Positions 22,996 through 58,246 of a stretch of DNA of 64,000 nt are shown piece after piece. Location of the stretch: the NCBI RefSeq assembly GCF_014651495.1, contig NZ_BMWZ01000005.1:248001-312000 (forward strand), in the 5' to 3' direction. The position numbers were made by a program, and so were the translations under genes. Under the pieces are notes generated by a model. The model made no database searches, was not told where the DNA came from, and saw only the letters and a list, made by a program, of their open reading frames with translations. Position 1 is the stretch's first letter, and every line of letters begins with the position of its first letter. This DNA comes from Algibacter mikhailovii. GTDB taxonomy: Bacteria > Bacteroidota > Bacteroidia > Flavobacteriales > Flavobacteriaceae.

Positions 22996-23424
22996 ATGAA
23001 GTCTTTTTTTATACTCTTATCTACCTTGCTATTAATGGCTTGTAGCAGTAATTCTAATGATAATCCACAGTGTAATTATCTGTTGGATATTGGAGTGAAT
23101 TTTGAAATAGATTTAAGTTTACCAGAGTATAGTCAATTAAATTTTGCAGGAAATTCATTATATATTCCTAATCAAGGGAATGCAGGTCTTATTGTGGCTA
23201 CTACCGGTAGTGCTTTTTATGCTTGGGATGCGGCAGATCCAAATCATGCTTTATCTGCATGCTCGGTCATTGAGCCCAAAGGTCTTTTTGGTGGGTGTGG
23301 TTGTGATGATGACAATACATATGATTTTATAACAGGCAGACCTCAACAAAATGATGGTTTAAGATGTGCATTAAGAAATTACCGAATAGAAAGAGCGGGT
23401 AATATCCTTATTATATTCAACTAA
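22996..23424 (+). CDS. Lipoprotein with degenerate Rieske-like domain
   Basis: A 142-residue protein with a lipobox (LLLMACSS, Cys16). The mature part begins CNYLLDIGVNFEIDLS and contains YIPNQGNAGLIVATTGSAFY, AWDAADPNH, CGCDDDNTYDFITG and RNYRIERAGNILIIFN. The order of strands and the cysteine-rich middle resemble a Rieske [2Fe-2S] domain, but the CxH and CxxH ligand pairs are not present, so no cluster of that type is expected. It belongs, from memory, to a family of small Bacteroidota lipoproteins without assigned function. It converges on the permease gene with a four-base overlap. Confidence 0.6.
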   Translation: MKSFFILLSTLLLMACSSNSNDNPQCNYLLDIGVNFEIDLSLPEYSQLNFAGNSLYIPNQGNAGLIVATTGSAFYAWDAADPNHALSACSVIEPKGLFGGCGCDDDNTYDFITGRPQQNDGLRCALRNYRIERAGNILIIFN

Positions 23425-24008
23425 GAATGTGGTGTAACGGCTATTTTTGGTAATAATTTCTTTTTCCACTGGAAATACCCAACAAAAGAGAATACCAGAT
23501 ATATTAAAGTTAGAATGGTATATAAATTAAGATCTCTTTTTGCATACAGAAATATTGTAACGGCGTTAATGACAATCCAAAATTTCCATGAGGCCAGCTT
23601 TTTTTGTGCCTCTAAATAACTGGCAATAAAACTAAAAATGGTAGTATGTGCATCTAAATATGGCATACTGGCGTTGGTGTAAACATCAAAAAAGTACGCC
23701 AATAGTAATGACAATATTTCTCCTAAAATAATGAGGTAAGCATATGTTTGAAGTGAAAAGTCACTGATTGGTAATTGTTTGTTAGCACTCAAAGATTTTT
23801 TCCAATGAAAAAATCCATAAATACCAATTAATACATAATAAATATATAAAATAGACTCTGAGTATAACCCGGTTCTATAGAATAGAAAAATACTCACCAG
23901 TGATCCCAAGATTCCAAACGCCCAACAAATTATTTTTTCTTTGATTAGAAAGAATAAATAACCTAAACCCAACACCACTGCTATTATTTCTAAATATAAG
24001 TCCATCAA
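23421..24008 (-). CDS. pnuT: PnuC/PnuT-family permease, probable thiamine transporter
   Basis: A 195-residue inner-membrane protein with about seven hydrophobic segments. CWAFGILGSLVSIFLFYRTG and IYYVLIGIYGFFHW are typical of the PnuC family, which moves vitamins such as nicotinamide riboside or thiamine by facilitated diffusion. The gene is the last of an operon headed by a TPP riboswitch and a TonB receptor; in Bacteroidota, PnuC homologs in that setting are assigned as thiamine transporters (PnuT). Assignment to thiamine therefore rests on context. It overlaps the oxygenase gene by four bases (ATGA). Confidence 0.82.
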   Translation of the reverse strand: MMDLYLEIIAVVLGLGYLFFLIKEKIICWAFGILGSLVSIFLFYRTGLYSESILYIYYVLIGIYGFFHWKKSLSANKQLPISDFSLQTYAYLIILGEILSLLLAYFFDVYTNASMPYLDAHTTIFSFIASYLEAQKKLASWKFWIVINAVTIFLYAKRDLNLYTILTLIYLVFSFVGYFQWKKKLLPKIAVTPHS

Positions 24009-24703
24009 AATAAGGATAAATAGTTTTTGAAATAGGCTTCACTTGTAAAGGTTCTATCCATAAATTTCAAAGTCAGATTTGGTTTAGGCAATGAGAAAAA
24101 GGCAAAAGAATAACGTTCCCTGTGGGGATTTAAAAAATCTACCTGATGTTCAAGGGCTTTATATTTGCCATTAGTTAGAAACTCTAGTAAGTACCCTGGA
24201 AAAATGATAATATTATCTGTTAAAGCTAAAACTTGTGTCTCATTTTTTAAATTTTGAAAAGCAAAGCCTTCCGAAGCTCCAAATACAAATACTGTAAATA
24301 AAGAAACATCTACATGTTTTGAAAGCCTTAGGTTTATCGATTGGCTTTTATCTACTTTAGGATAGAAGTTACAGGATATCATATGCCCGATGGCACCGTG
24401 ATAAAAGGCTTCAAGTCCCGGGATGGGTAAATTTTTTATGATGTTGAGCTCAATAGATCTAACTTGTTCAATAAGTAGTTGCCATTCATTTTTTAAAAAA
24501 GGATGAAACTCATTAGGGAACTTTTTGGGTGCTGAAAACTCCGATAGTACAAATGAATGTAGCAAATCTGTCTCATATTGATTACTACTATCTTTTTGCC
24601 CCATATAGGAGTAGCCATCAAAACCACAGTTGTAATACTGCTGAAGAAAATTTTTTCTATACTCAAAAGGTATCGCTAAAAAATCTTCAAATGATGATCT
24701 CAA
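24005..24703 (-). CDS. Fe(II)/2-oxoglutarate-type oxygenase in thiamine operon
   Basis: A protein of about 232 residues resembling the isopenicillin-N-synthase/DIOX superfamily. The iron triad is His130-x-Asp132 (LSKHVDVSLFTV) and His186 (KALEHQVDF); Arg197 and Ser199 (RYS) match the RxS co-substrate motif, and LLEFLTNGKYKALEHQ is the usual strand before the last histidine. The substrate is unknown. The start is uncertain: the frame is open upstream to the end of the receptor gene, but TTG at 24703 is the only standard start seen. It lies between the TonB receptor and the permease and overlaps the permease by four bases, so it is under the TPP riboswitch. Confidence 0.78.
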   Translation of the reverse strand: MRSSFEDFLAIPFEYRKNFLQQYYNCGFDGYSYMGQKDSSNQYETDLLHSFVLSEFSAPKKFPNEFHPFLKNEWQLLIEQVRSIELNIIKNLPIPGLEAFYHGAIGHMISCNFYPKVDKSQSINLRLSKHVDVSLFTVFVFGASEGFAFQNLKNETQVLALTDNIIIFPGYLLEFLTNGKYKALEHQVDFLNPHRERYSFAFFSLPKPNLTLKFMDRTFTSEAYFKNYLSLF

Positions 24704-24785
24704 TAGAACATCGGAAGATTTAGGAATTGTAGTATTAACAATTCCTAAATCTTGACCAATGCTATGTTCCTGCTCTAAAATATGC

Positions 24786-26951
24786 TTAAAATTTTAAGGT
24801 AAGTCCCACTAAAAAGTTAGCTGTAGCTTGAGGGTAATAGCCAGCATAGTATCCTGTTGTTATTCCTGATGGACTTGATGAGTCTTCATAATCATAAGAT
24901 CCAAAATAACCGTTTGATACATATTTTACATTAAAAATATTATTGGCTAAAGCAGTTAACACAATTGACTTGAAAATTTTATTAGGCTTAATTTCGTAGG
25001 TGATATTAAAATCATTCACAAAATAGCTGTCAAGTTTTGAAGCCTCATTATCAGTATTACCCATATATTGTTCGCCAACAAATTTACTTAAAAGAGAAAG
25101 TTGCAAGTTCCCAATAGGCGCGTAGTTAAATGCATTACCTAAAACAACATCAGGAGAAAATGAAATATTAGTATCGCCTAAATTAACTAATTCGCCATCG
25201 ATATTCGATTTGAAATCTTGGTTTTTGTTGTTGCTTAGGGCAACATTTAAACTCATATTAAAATTTTGCGTAAACTGAATATTCCCATCAACTTCAAGAC
25301 CTAGCCTATAGCTCTTTCCGCTAGTTGCTCTAATTGGGCTGCCTACATCATCAAGTTCTCCAGTTAAAACCAGTTGGTTTTGGTAGAACATATAGTATAA
25401 ATTAGTATTCACACTAATTCTATTTTTATTAAATCTCCATCCTAATTCAATATCGTTAAGTGTTTCATGCTCGGTAACACCCGCTTTAAAATCATCTCGA
25501 TTTGGTTCTCTGTTGGCACGTGCATATGACGCATACAGACTATTAAAATCATTAGTCTTATACGTTAATCCTCCTTTAGGGTTAAAGAAACTAAAACTAG
25601 CGTCAGTTATAAATGGCGCTCCATTTGATTCGATACCATTGGTTTTATAATCTACAAAACGCCCTTGTAAATCAACAAATCCAGTTAACTTTTCGGTCAA
25701 CTTAAATGTAGCCTTTGAAAATATGCTCAAATCATTTTTTGTTGCATCTCCTTGGTAATATCTATCTCTGATATTCGCATCAGGAGAAAATTCTCTAGCC
25801 CATATTACTTCACCAAAATGGTCTCCTGAATAGGTGTTGTAAGACACTCCTGAAATAACCTCAAAGGCATTCTTCTTATAGGTTACATTCGCGTTAATTA
25901 CATAAAAATCGTTATCTAACCAACGTCGTCTTATAAGATCTGTAATCGGGTTGTTATCATCATCTACATCAGTGGCAACAACAATTCCATTATACAAATC
26001 AATTTCATCTGTACCCTCTTCAAATTGCTCAAAATATCCTTTCCCTTTTGTATAGTTTAATCCAAGAGTCGTAGACCAATTATTGTTTAAGCGTTCATTC
26101 CAATGCAATTGATAATGGTCTTGCCAGTAATTATCCGTTTCGTTATCGTAGGTATATGGATTTTGCCTTCTATTCTCCTCTAGTTGTTCCGCTGTTAAGC
26201 CAAACCATGCTTGGTAAGTCTGCTCTGATGCTCCAAACGTAATCGCCTTAATTAAAGTATTATCATCTTTGTAGATACCTTGTAAAAAGTATGATTTTAA
26301 ATCGGTAAACGCTCTATCAACATAGCCATCAGAATAAATTTTTGAAAGACGTCCTGATATTTCAAAGTGATCATTTAATAAGCCGGTACTCATTTTAACG
26401 GTATGTTTTCTCGTATTATAACTACCAAAGCTATTGGAAATTTCTCCTGAGGCCTCGTCTGAGTATGCATCTGTTAAGAGGTTTAAACTTGCTCCAAATG
26501 CACCAGAACCATTTGTAGAAGTACCAACCCCACGTTGCAACTGTAAACTTTCTGTAGAAGAGGCAAAATCACCCAGGTTCACCCAGAACGTTCCTTGACT
26601 TTCAGGATCGTTATATGGGATTCCATTAATGGTTACATTTACTCGTGTAGCATCCGTTCCACGAACTCTAATACCTGTGTAGCCAACACCAGCACCGGCA
26701 TCACTCGTAGTTACCACAGATGGCAAGTAATTAAGCAGAATAGGGATGTCCTGCCCTAAATTTCGCTTAGCAAGTTCTTCCTTAGAAACATTACTATGTG
26801 TAATTGGAGAATCTGCATCAACACGTACTGCTTTTACTAAAACTTCGTCAAGTTTTTCTGTTTTAGTTGAATCTTGTACTACTTGATTTTGTTGTGCATA
26901 AGCACTGACTGATAACACTAGGAGTGTTAAAAAAAGAAATAAATTTTTCAT
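24786..26951 (-). CDS. TonB-dependent outer-membrane receptor, probable thiamine uptake
   Basis: A 721-residue outer-membrane protein: signal peptide (MKNLFLFLTLLVLSVSAYAQ), a TonB-box region, a plug domain (about 40-160, with GVGYTGIRVRGTDATRVNV and NGIPYNDPESQG), and a 22-strand barrel ending in the aromatic LVGLTLKF. It has no N-terminal carboxypeptidase-like domain and no SusD partner, which separates it from glycan receptors. A TPP riboswitch lies in its leader, so the substrate is probably thiamine or a derivative. It heads an operon with the oxygenase and PnuT-like genes. Confidence 0.88.
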   Translation of the reverse strand: MKNLFLFLTLLVLSVSAYAQQNQVVQDSTKTEKLDEVLVKAVRVDADSPITHSNVSKEELAKRNLGQDIPILLNYLPSVVTTSDAGAGVGYTGIRVRGTDATRVNVTINGIPYNDPESQGTFWVNLGDFASSTESLQLQRGVGTSTNGSGAFGASLNLLTDAYSDEASGEISNSFGSYNTRKHTVKMSTGLLNDHFEISGRLSKIYSDGYVDRAFTDLKSYFLQGIYKDDNTLIKAITFGASEQTYQAWFGLTAEQLEENRRQNPYTYDNETDNYWQDHYQLHWNERLNNNWSTTLGLNYTKGKGYFEQFEEGTDEIDLYNGIVVATDVDDDNNPITDLIRRRWLDNDFYVINANVTYKKNAFEVISGVSYNTYSGDHFGEVIWAREFSPDANIRDRYYQGDATKNDLSIFSKATFKLTEKLTGFVDLQGRFVDYKTNGIESNGAPFITDASFSFFNPKGGLTYKTNDFNSLYASYARANREPNRDDFKAGVTEHETLNDIELGWRFNKNRISVNTNLYYMFYQNQLVLTGELDDVGSPIRATSGKSYRLGLEVDGNIQFTQNFNMSLNVALSNNKNQDFKSNIDGELVNLGDTNISFSPDVVLGNAFNYAPIGNLQLSLLSKFVGEQYMGNTDNEASKLDSYFVNDFNITYEIKPNKIFKSIVLTALANNIFNVKYVSNGYFGSYDYEDSSSPSGITTGYYAGYYPQATANFLVGLTLKF

Positions 26952-27077
26952 TACGATTGTTTAAAATCGAATAAAAAGAGGTCATTATTCTTTATTGTTA
27001 TTAATTAGTTTTTAACCTTAACAAGGACAAACACATGATATGATACAACCATGCAAAAAGCCTACTTGTTAAAATTC

Positions 27078-27155
27078 ACAATCCCTAAACAGCATTACCT
27101 GTTCTAGGTTCATTGGGTATGATCTCAGCCGATAATAGGCACCCCTTTTTTGAGA
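27078..27155 (-). promoter_or_regulatory. TPP riboswitch (THI element)
   Basis: On the minus strand the conserved core appears in order: GGGGTGCC, GGCTGAGATCATACCC, GAACCTAGAACAGGTAATGC and TTAGGGA. These are the sequence blocks of the thiamine-pyrophosphate aptamer. It lies about 130 bases before the TonB receptor gene. Downstream, TTAACAAG (read at 27065-27072) can pair with CTTGTTAA (27018-27025), and CCTTGTTAAGG forms a small hairpin, but I cannot tell whether the switch acts on transcription or translation. Thiamine excess should lower expression. Confidence 0.93.
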
Positions 27156-27161
27156 ACGCTG

Positions 27162-27169
27162 CAAAAGTA
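27162..27169 (-). promoter_or_regulatory. Bacteroidota -7 promoter element of the thiamine operon
   Basis: TACTTTTG on the minus strand matches TAnnTTTG and sits seven bases before the predicted 5' end of the TPP aptamer, as expected for the promoter of a riboswitch leader. No clear -33 element is seen. Confidence 0.55.
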
Positions 27170-29383: not shown

Positions 29384-30016
29384 TTAAGCAATTTGTGTAT
29401 TCCTTCTTATATTTCTTTCCCATGCTAAATAACCAAAAATGGCAATAATTGTAAATCCTAAATATTGAACACTTGTAAATGTAAATCCCTTATAATAATA
29501 CAACGGAACTGATATAATATCTCCAACAATCCATAAAATCCAATTTTCTATTTTTCGCCTTGCCATAAGCCACATACCAACAAAAAAGATAGCTGTTGTA
29601 ATGGTGTCAACATAGGCTACCCAACTTGTCCATTTGTTAAAGGCTCTGTAAACTATGTAAACAAAAATTAAAGTACCTAAAAATATAGCTAAACTTGCTT
29701 TTTTTTCGCTAAACGTTGTTTTTGATATTGGAGTAACATGGGTGTCGTCCACTTTTCTTGTCCAAATGAGCCAGCCATAAACACTCATAATGAAATAATA
29801 GGCGTTTATCATCATATCACCTAATAGTTCCCATTTCATTAAGAGATAAACAAAGATAATGGTGCTTATCATCCCTGTAGGAAAAACTAGAATACTATTC
29901 TGTTTAGAAAACCAAACGGATAAAAAACCAAAAATAACAGCTGTTATTTCTAATACGACATCAATGGTTTCATAATTGGCATATTGCCCAAAGAAAAACT
30001 CAAAAATGAAGTTCAT
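29384..30016 (-). CDS. pnuC: PnuC-family nicotinamide riboside transporter
   Basis: A 210-residue polytopic protein with about seven hydrophobic segments and the PnuC landmarks NAYYFIMSVYGWLIWTRK (about 83-100) and IENWILWIVGDIISVPLYYY (about 163-182). It is only distantly similar to the PnuT-like protein at 23421-24008 and has no TPP riboswitch, so nicotinamide riboside is the more likely substrate. It follows the PcrB gene by 84 bases on the same strand. About 210 bases separate it from DUF4301; I see no gene there. Confidence 0.83.
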   Translation of the reverse strand: MNFIFEFFFGQYANYETIDVVLEITAVIFGFLSVWFSKQNSILVFPTGMISTIIFVYLLMKWELLGDMMINAYYFIMSVYGWLIWTRKVDDTHVTPISKTTFSEKKASLAIFLGTLIFVYIVYRAFNKWTSWVAYVDTITTAIFFVGMWLMARRKIENWILWIVGDIISVPLYYYKGFTFTSVQYLGFTIIAIFGYLAWERNIRRNTQIA

Positions 30017-58113: not shown

Positions 58114-58246
58114 AATAATTAATTATTTGAGGTTCTCGACCTCGGTTATTAATGAGGGCGCAAAGATACTATATTTTTTAATATAGAAGTCTTTTTGTGG
58201 TATTAAAAATCAGGGTTTTAATGCTTGTTTTTCAAGGTATTGAAAA

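Follow-up and report, generated by a model that had tools for sequence, protein, structure and literature searches.

Why does a gene for an iron- and 2-oxoglutarate (2OG)-dependent oxygenase lie inside an operon for the uptake of thiamine (vitamin B1)? The question is raised by a 64,000-nucleotide stretch of the genome of Algibacter mikhailovii (contig NZ_BMWZ01000005.1, positions 248,001 to 312,000), referred to hereafter as the window, whose numbering is used throughout. On its minus strand a thiamine pyrophosphate (TPP) riboswitch aptamer is followed by genes for a TonB receptor, an oxygenase (OXY) and a PnuT-type permease. From the gene content and its recurrence in other genomes we propose, giving the idea about an even chance, that this is an acquisition operon for thiamine starvation in which OXY makes usable thiamine from a modified form that is imported.

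The oxygenase and its operon

The unit in the window genome (G000) consists of four features.

27065-27156, minus strand: TPP riboswitch aptamer (RF00059, 46.7 bits, E 3.4e-8, model positions 1-105 of 105)
24786-26951, minus strand: TonB-dependent outer-membrane receptor, 721 aa, OMthi/omr1-like and of the TPP-controlled kind (PF00593 and PF07715)
24005-24790, minus strand: open frame of the 2OG-Fe(II) oxygenase OXY (PF03171); the open reading frame (ORF) called from TTG spans 24005-24703
23421-24005, minus strand: PnuT-type inner-membrane permease (PF04973, E 6.9e-45)

Aptamer, receptor and permease are united in one unit, which identifies it as a TPP-controlled thiamine uptake operon; a pyrophosphokinase gene is optional in such units, and that of genome G129 is without one. 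An earlier note on this DNA had described the same order with an aptamer at 27078-27155, which falls inside the interval given here. The four-base overlap between oxygenase and permease that it also reported would require a TTG start at 24008. The permease ATG at 24005 overlaps the OXY stop by a single base (TGATG), as it does in L051, L052 and L059.

OXY matches the PF03171 profile with 45.6 bits (curated cut-off 23, E 9.6e-12); a search of NCBIfam gave no match at E 0.01. With residues numbered from the opening of the frame at 24790, H159, D161, H215, R226 and S228 are identical in 21 aligned OXY sequences (all but L055, L064 and G926) and in a second set of 20 that includes L055 and L064. 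The HxD...H and RxS motifs that the earlier note had pointed out are thus present and invariant in the 21. HxD...H supplies the iron ligands, and the roles of both motifs are established for the 2OG-Fe(II) oxygenase superfamily; 2OG is accordingly the presumed co-substrate of OXY. Eight further residues (D58, Y60, Q65, N70, Q71, E114, N141 and Y143) are invariant in the 21 sequences, five of them within a family-specific block, FDGYSxxGQxDSxNQ. L064, outside that set, has Q in place of D58.

No ATG opens the OXY frame. The ORF as called (232 aa) begins at its only TTG (24703), while the frame is open to 24790 and offers no in-frame ATG, GTG or TTG upstream of that codon. A start at 24703 would lose the residues GIVxTTxPKSSD, which are kept in the nearest relatives; residues 13-29 of this upstream stretch are modelled by AlphaFold2 with fair to high confidence and include a confident strand. 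In the congener G017 the same conserved stretch lies upstream of the first OXY ATG. Because the upstream residues are conserved and in part modelled with at least fair confidence, the true start is probably upstream of 24703 at a non-ATG codon, and a non-standard start codon between 24703 and 24790 is possible. A frameshift fusion of the TonB and OXY genes was considered and rejected, since relatives have a separate ATG start for OXY (e.g. L053).

The AlphaFold2 model has the fold of a 2OG oxygenase (mean pLDDT 90.9). The top Foldseek match by E-value, with a small margin, is thymine-7-hydroxylase (5c3p), and with VIA-align the best fifty entries span Z scores of 20.8 to 18.7, thymine-7-hydroxylase scoring 20.0. 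Many 2OG oxygenases thus fit about equally, and no substrate follows from the structure. The earlier label of an isopenicillin N synthase (IPNS)-type enzyme is correct only at the level of the superfamily. In a profile search plant dioxygenases rank first (51 bits), ahead of IPNS (28 bits over 94 positions), and in the structure comparison IPNS and other 2OG oxygenases tie.

The aptamer scores below the Rfam gathering score of 54.3 bits, yet the whole model is aligned and the conserved core is present (GGGGUGCC, GGCUGAGAU, ACCC, UGAACCU, UAAU and AGGGA). It was missed by the default Rfam scan of the window, surfacing only when an E-value threshold was applied to a short stretch; no other TPP match in the genome reaches E 0.001. 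At five other OXY loci the aptamers score 59-74.5 bits. The leader gave a folding z of -2.2, and no switch states or terminator could be read from the fold. A Bacteroidota-type -7 box (TANNTTTG) at 27162-27169 was dropped as a candidate, the motif occurring 107 times in the window against 106.8 expected by chance. TPP riboswitches usually turn genes off at high TPP, and OFF-type regulation of this operon by TPP is predicted. According to PMC5613172, the transport genes of Bacteroides thetaiotaomicron changed little with thiamine.

Partners of the oxygenase in other genomes

Distinct OXY loci number 24 (G000, G017=L050, L051, L052, G145=L053, L054, L055, G002=L056, L057, L058, G109=L059, L060-L065, G260=L066, L067, G040, G650, G821, G902 and G926) and come from Bacteroidota, Gammaproteobacteria and one metagenome-assembled genome labelled Roseovarius. 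L055 and L064 extend only 135 and 21 bases past OXY and have no PnuT or TonB ortholog upstream of it; the other 22 have DNA on both sides. In 21 of these 22 a PnuC/PnuT-family gene stands directly beside OXY. Twenty of the 21 permeases fall into one clade (support 99/95) that is separate from PnuC and in which, among the 53 tree rows, only two members are without OXY; the permease of L058 is a divergent member of the family (PF04973). The clade joins the PnuT of G016, which is linked to thiamine pyrophosphokinase (TPK), at a support of 83/20 only, and the NCBIfam PnuC model also matches the window permease (90.6 bits, cut-off 42.45).

OXY orthologs, scoring at least 208 bits, occur in 6 of 249 Flavobacteriaceae genomes, and permease orthologs in eight, six of which adjoin OXY; the other two are in G129, behind a TPP-TonB unit, and in G099, where the permease is alone. 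The next-best OXY match in the family scores 40 bits and comes from a family of mostly 320-aa, IPNS-like paralogs. These proteins (L002, L008-L031) are distant homologs of OXY (26-36% identity for the listed loci) but are longer and widespread, and none of the 25 loci checked has a PnuT/PnuC neighbour. Most of these control loci have 1.5-kb flanks and ORFs cut by locus ends are unlisted, so that the comparison is informative for neighbours of PnuT size and less so for TonB genes. Distances among OXY sequences and among their permeases were correlated (Mantel test, r 0.63, 21 pairs, 0 of 5000 permutations as high); species relatedness confounds this result, and it was given no weight of its own as evidence.

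A scan of 84,980 species genomes gave 18 OXY loci; it was limited to two peptide patterns and may have missed relatives. OXY was present in 5 of 390 genomes of the order of Pseudohalioglobus. A sample of 395 genomes drawn from the phylum yielded no OXY apart from that of G000 at E 1e-30, and plasmid records held none at E 1e-5.

A TonB receptor belongs to the OXY cluster in 12 of the 22 loci, and a TPP aptamer was detected at E 0.01 or better at 10 of those 12. The match in L052 is marginal (28.3 bits, E 0.18) and was left out of the count; the aptamer region of L054 lies off the contig, upstream. Seven loci (the window, L050-L054 and L067) have receptor, OXY and permease in this order on one strand. 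In five (L065, L066, G650, G821 and G902) the TonB and OXY genes are convergent and the permease gene diverges from OXY; four Gammaproteobacteria (aptamers of 72.2-74.5 bits) and Ekhidna (59.4 bits) have the same partners in this other gene order. Recurrence in different arrangements is stronger evidence of linkage than one conserved operon would be, and a set that recurs in such distant bacteria is not a product of chance. The association of OXY with thiamine uptake looks functional, and it passes the check set in the earlier note, whether homologs adjoin thiamine genes. Since nine loci carry the OXY-permease pair alone and twelve join it variously to a receptor, the pair is the unit of inheritance, combined with the TPP-TonB unit in different arrangements. 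Orthologs of the receptor also stand behind TPP aptamers in genomes without OXY, e.g. G086, G001 and G129.

In Maribacter antarcticus an NMT1/THI5-like gene (L067:9380-10285) starts 26 bases behind the permease. Its product has no obvious signal peptide by eye, and the solved structures closest to it are those of a solute-binding protein (4nmy), ThiY (3ix1) and THI13/THI5.

Two other features of the window were recorded. A small lipoprotein-like ORF (22996-23424, plus strand; no Pfam match at E 0.01) is convergent to the operon, and by eye similar ORFs adjoin a TonB or PnuT gene in several relatives. The sole default Rfam match in the window is an S16-Flavobacteria ribosomal protein leader (58118-58153, minus strand, 59.2 bits).

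Host thiamine metabolism and the possible role of the oxygenase

What OXY could usefully make depends on what its hosts can do with the product. The window genome has no detectable ThiC, and its best ThiE match is not convincing (19.5 bits against a cut-off of 145.1); a TPK gene lies on contig 8 (114 bits with thi_PPkinase, cut-off 76.4). With this complement the organism should need intact thiamine. ThiC is absent from five of the six OXY genomes tested for it, and a convincing ThiE from 13 of 19, a sample made up of six genomes that are all at least 99% complete and a further set of unstated completeness (L052, G650, G821, G902 and G926 are not among them). The calls were made on the best match per genome: 79 bits or more counted as ThiE-like and no more than 21.7 bits as absence, with none between. 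The 13 genomes lacking a convincing ThiE could not use that enzyme to link separate pyrimidine and thiazole, which favours a substrate with an intact thiamine skeleton, and in most hosts a useful product of OXY would be limited to a compound with both rings. ThiE absence does not itself explain OXY, since the enzyme is often missing in the family anyway (above the cut-off in 6 of 14 genomes without OXY).

These observations are consistent with the following scheme. When TPP is scarce the riboswitch would let the operon be expressed, the TonB receptor would import a thiamine-type compound and PnuT would move it across the inner membrane. In the cytoplasm OXY, using Fe(II), O2 and 2-oxoglutarate, would oxidise this compound, a modified thiamine with pyrimidine and thiazole still joined. 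Thiamine could then be freed by hydroxylation at a position adjoining a heteroatom or on a substituent at C2 (oxidative dealkylation or deacylation), and TPK would convert it to TPP. The permease would thus carry thiamine-like compounds, and the product would be thiamine. The more specific claim, that OXY is an Fe(II)/2OG oxygenase dedicated to B1 acquisition, making thiamine in the cell from an unrecognised environmental form whose rings are joined, we hold somewhat short of an even chance. Among the options raised in the earlier note, salvage of an imported thiamine derivative is still the best reading.

The main rival makes OXY a guard of the transporter. Toxic thiamine analogues or damaged thiamine entering by the same receptor and permease would be oxidised before they could block enzymes that use TPP. 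Under this reading, too, OXY should be co-expressed with the importer, and the closer tie of OXY to the permease (21 of 22 loci) than to the riboswitch (10 of 22) speaks for it, as does the patchy and rare occurrence of OXY, which is what an accessory defence would show. A guard needs no salvageable product, so the ThiE and TPK status of the host would be irrelevant. TPP control, however, would make OXY when thiamine is short, a pattern more usual for acquisition. Nor is a thiamine analogue known for this setting, analogue producers not having been searched for. This explanation fits nearly as well, and we consider it unlikely rather than remote.

Oxidation of a free thiamine moiety is an improbable alternative. 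OXY might convert a methyl group of the free pyrimidine to give hydroxymethylpyrimidine, as thymine-7-hydroxylase acts on thymine, or might oxidise free thiazole. The first rank of thymine-7-hydroxylase in Foldseek favours this, as do the ThiE-like matches in 6 of the 19 genomes and the continuation of the M. antarcticus operon into the NMT1/THI5-like gene. The earlier note had allowed for action on the separate pyrimidine or thiazole. That option is weakened by the 13 genomes, G000 among them, with no convincing ThiE to join the halves, and by VIA-align, in which thymine-7-hydroxylase ties with many other enzymes.

It is less probable again that the permease carries nicotinamide riboside, a nucleoside or a purine, that OXY acts on that cargo, and that the link to TPP is accidental. 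Specificities within the PnuC family do vary, and 9 of the 22 OXY loci lack a nearby TPP-TonB unit. There is also a precedent: according to a study of the NMT1 motif (PMC7373994), IPNS-like dioxygenases and NMT1/THI5-like genes behind xanthine riboswitches belong to purine and not thiamine metabolism, thiamine annotations having misled. At the loci considered here the link to TPP-TonB is found repeatedly, differently arranged, in both Bacteroidota and Gammaproteobacteria, the riboswitch of the window is a TPP riboswitch, no xanthine riboswitch is among those listed for the OXY loci scanned, and the permease clade keeps its TPP-TonB partner in G129, where OXY is absent. That OXY is a passenger with no role in B1 metabolism, an option the earlier note left standing, agrees with its rare and patchy occurrence but is hardly credible given the permease neighbour at 21 of 22 loci and an active site conserved across phyla.

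Several observations weigh against salvage of a joined-ring thiamine derivative. The OXY fold singles out no substrate, the exact start codon in G000 is not fixed by sequence, and the assignment of PnuT specificity rests on context and phylogeny. Nine loci have the OXY-PnuT pair without TonB or TPP riboswitch in the scanned stretches; six of these genomes (G002, G109, G040, G252, G255 and G256) have a TPP-TonB unit elsewhere, and in G253, G254 and G257 none was found elsewhere either. In Gammaproteobacteria it is the convergent TonB gene, and not OXY, that has the riboswitch in front of it. TPP control of OXY itself is thus predicted but not universal. The aptamer of L051 (36.7 bits) was too weak to be returned at E 0.001 when the whole genome of that locus (G249) was searched. 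The moieties might be usable in the six genomes with a ThiE-like match, and the search was aimed at ThiE, other kinds of thiamine monophosphate synthase not being searched for. Detoxification of analogues, finally, fits the same genomics as salvage does.

G926 also belongs on this side. It is the sole exception among the 22 loci, having OXY without PnuT at the locus and no TPP match in the genome. A broken TonB remnant faces OXY there as in its relatives (57% identity over 70 residues, then running on in another frame), which suggests a decaying or moved cluster. At this locus (L123, 6839-8047) OXY lies alone amid small ORFs, two weak V_AS5 matches and one group II intron match.

The last step of the scheme raises a further difficulty. 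TPK was found in three of six OXY genomes; G017, G109 and G040 have no detectable TPK and would need another kinase. A candidate replacement thiamine kinase comes from a neighbouring gene family. In several relatives a second PnuC gene and the gene of a NadR-type kinase (PF13521) precede the TPP-TonB unit, with such loci in L032 (11077-11658), L068, L069, L070, L108 and L128. The window itself has a second PnuC-family permease, given here for context.

29384-30016, minus strand: PNUC, second PnuC-family permease (PF04973, E 2.7e-51)

Its kinase partner is missing, no NadR-type match being found in G000 at E 1e-10. In 20 genomes the NadR-type kinase (15 genomes) and TPK (four) never occur together, G237 having neither; the chance that all four TPK genomes fall among the five kinase-less ones is 5/4845, uncorrected for relatedness. 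Of the two, the window genome has only TPK and its congener G017 only the kinase; G017 is also without a second PnuC gene at this place. It may be thiamine, and not nicotinamide riboside, that the PnuC-kinase pair serves in these bacteria, which we regard as a lead and not a result.

Which B1-related molecules bacterioplankton can use is an open question, and according to PMC10881298 most of them cannot make the vitamin. If OXY does free thiamine from an imported derivative, it would represent a new salvage reaction, one common to Bacteroidota and Gammaproteobacteria of the sea, and a pool of B1 vitamers that has yet to be measured would be indicated. That two phyla couple an oxygenase to B1 import suggests chemical modification of imported compounds by some cells, and the family offers a direct handle, as its substrate would reveal a form of B1 that matters in nature. 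Were OXY instead a guard, it would represent a transporter-linked defence against thiamine antimetabolites.

Comparison with known systems

The fold of OXY and its HxD...H and RxS motifs are common to thymine-7-hydroxylase, IPNS and plant 2OG dioxygenases (5c3p, 1bk0 and 6lsv), from which it differs in sequence (about 12-20% identity in structure alignments) and in having its own FDGYSxxGQxDSxNQ block. A search of the open-licence literature by titles and abstract starts found no description of this oxygenase among the matches listed, and the OXY step in thiamine uptake appears to be undescribed.

In its proposed mode of action OXY resembles MgdH, a 2OG-Fe(II) dioxygenase of a guanidine-riboswitch operon that, according to PMC12508155, demethylates methylguanidine. 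In both cases an oxygenase whose operon is under a riboswitch would render a modified form of the ligand usable. Ligand and operon differ, and the likeness proposed is one of function. Inspection of the loci by eye showed no recurrent neighbour of OXY and the permease that could act as its lyase.

The closest relative of the operon as a whole is the OMthi-pnuT-tnr3 operon of Bacteroidetes, which according to PMC5613172 combines a TPP riboswitch, a TonB receptor and a PnuT-type permease, as the window does; Bacteroides PnuT transports thiamine when expressed in Escherichia coli (PMC5613172). The classical form, TPP aptamer, TonB receptor and PnuT together with TPK, was found in G016. In the window, by contrast, OXY stands between receptor and permease and TPK is encoded elsewhere, on contig 8. 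The OXY operon is thus a variation on a known TPP-controlled thiamine uptake system.

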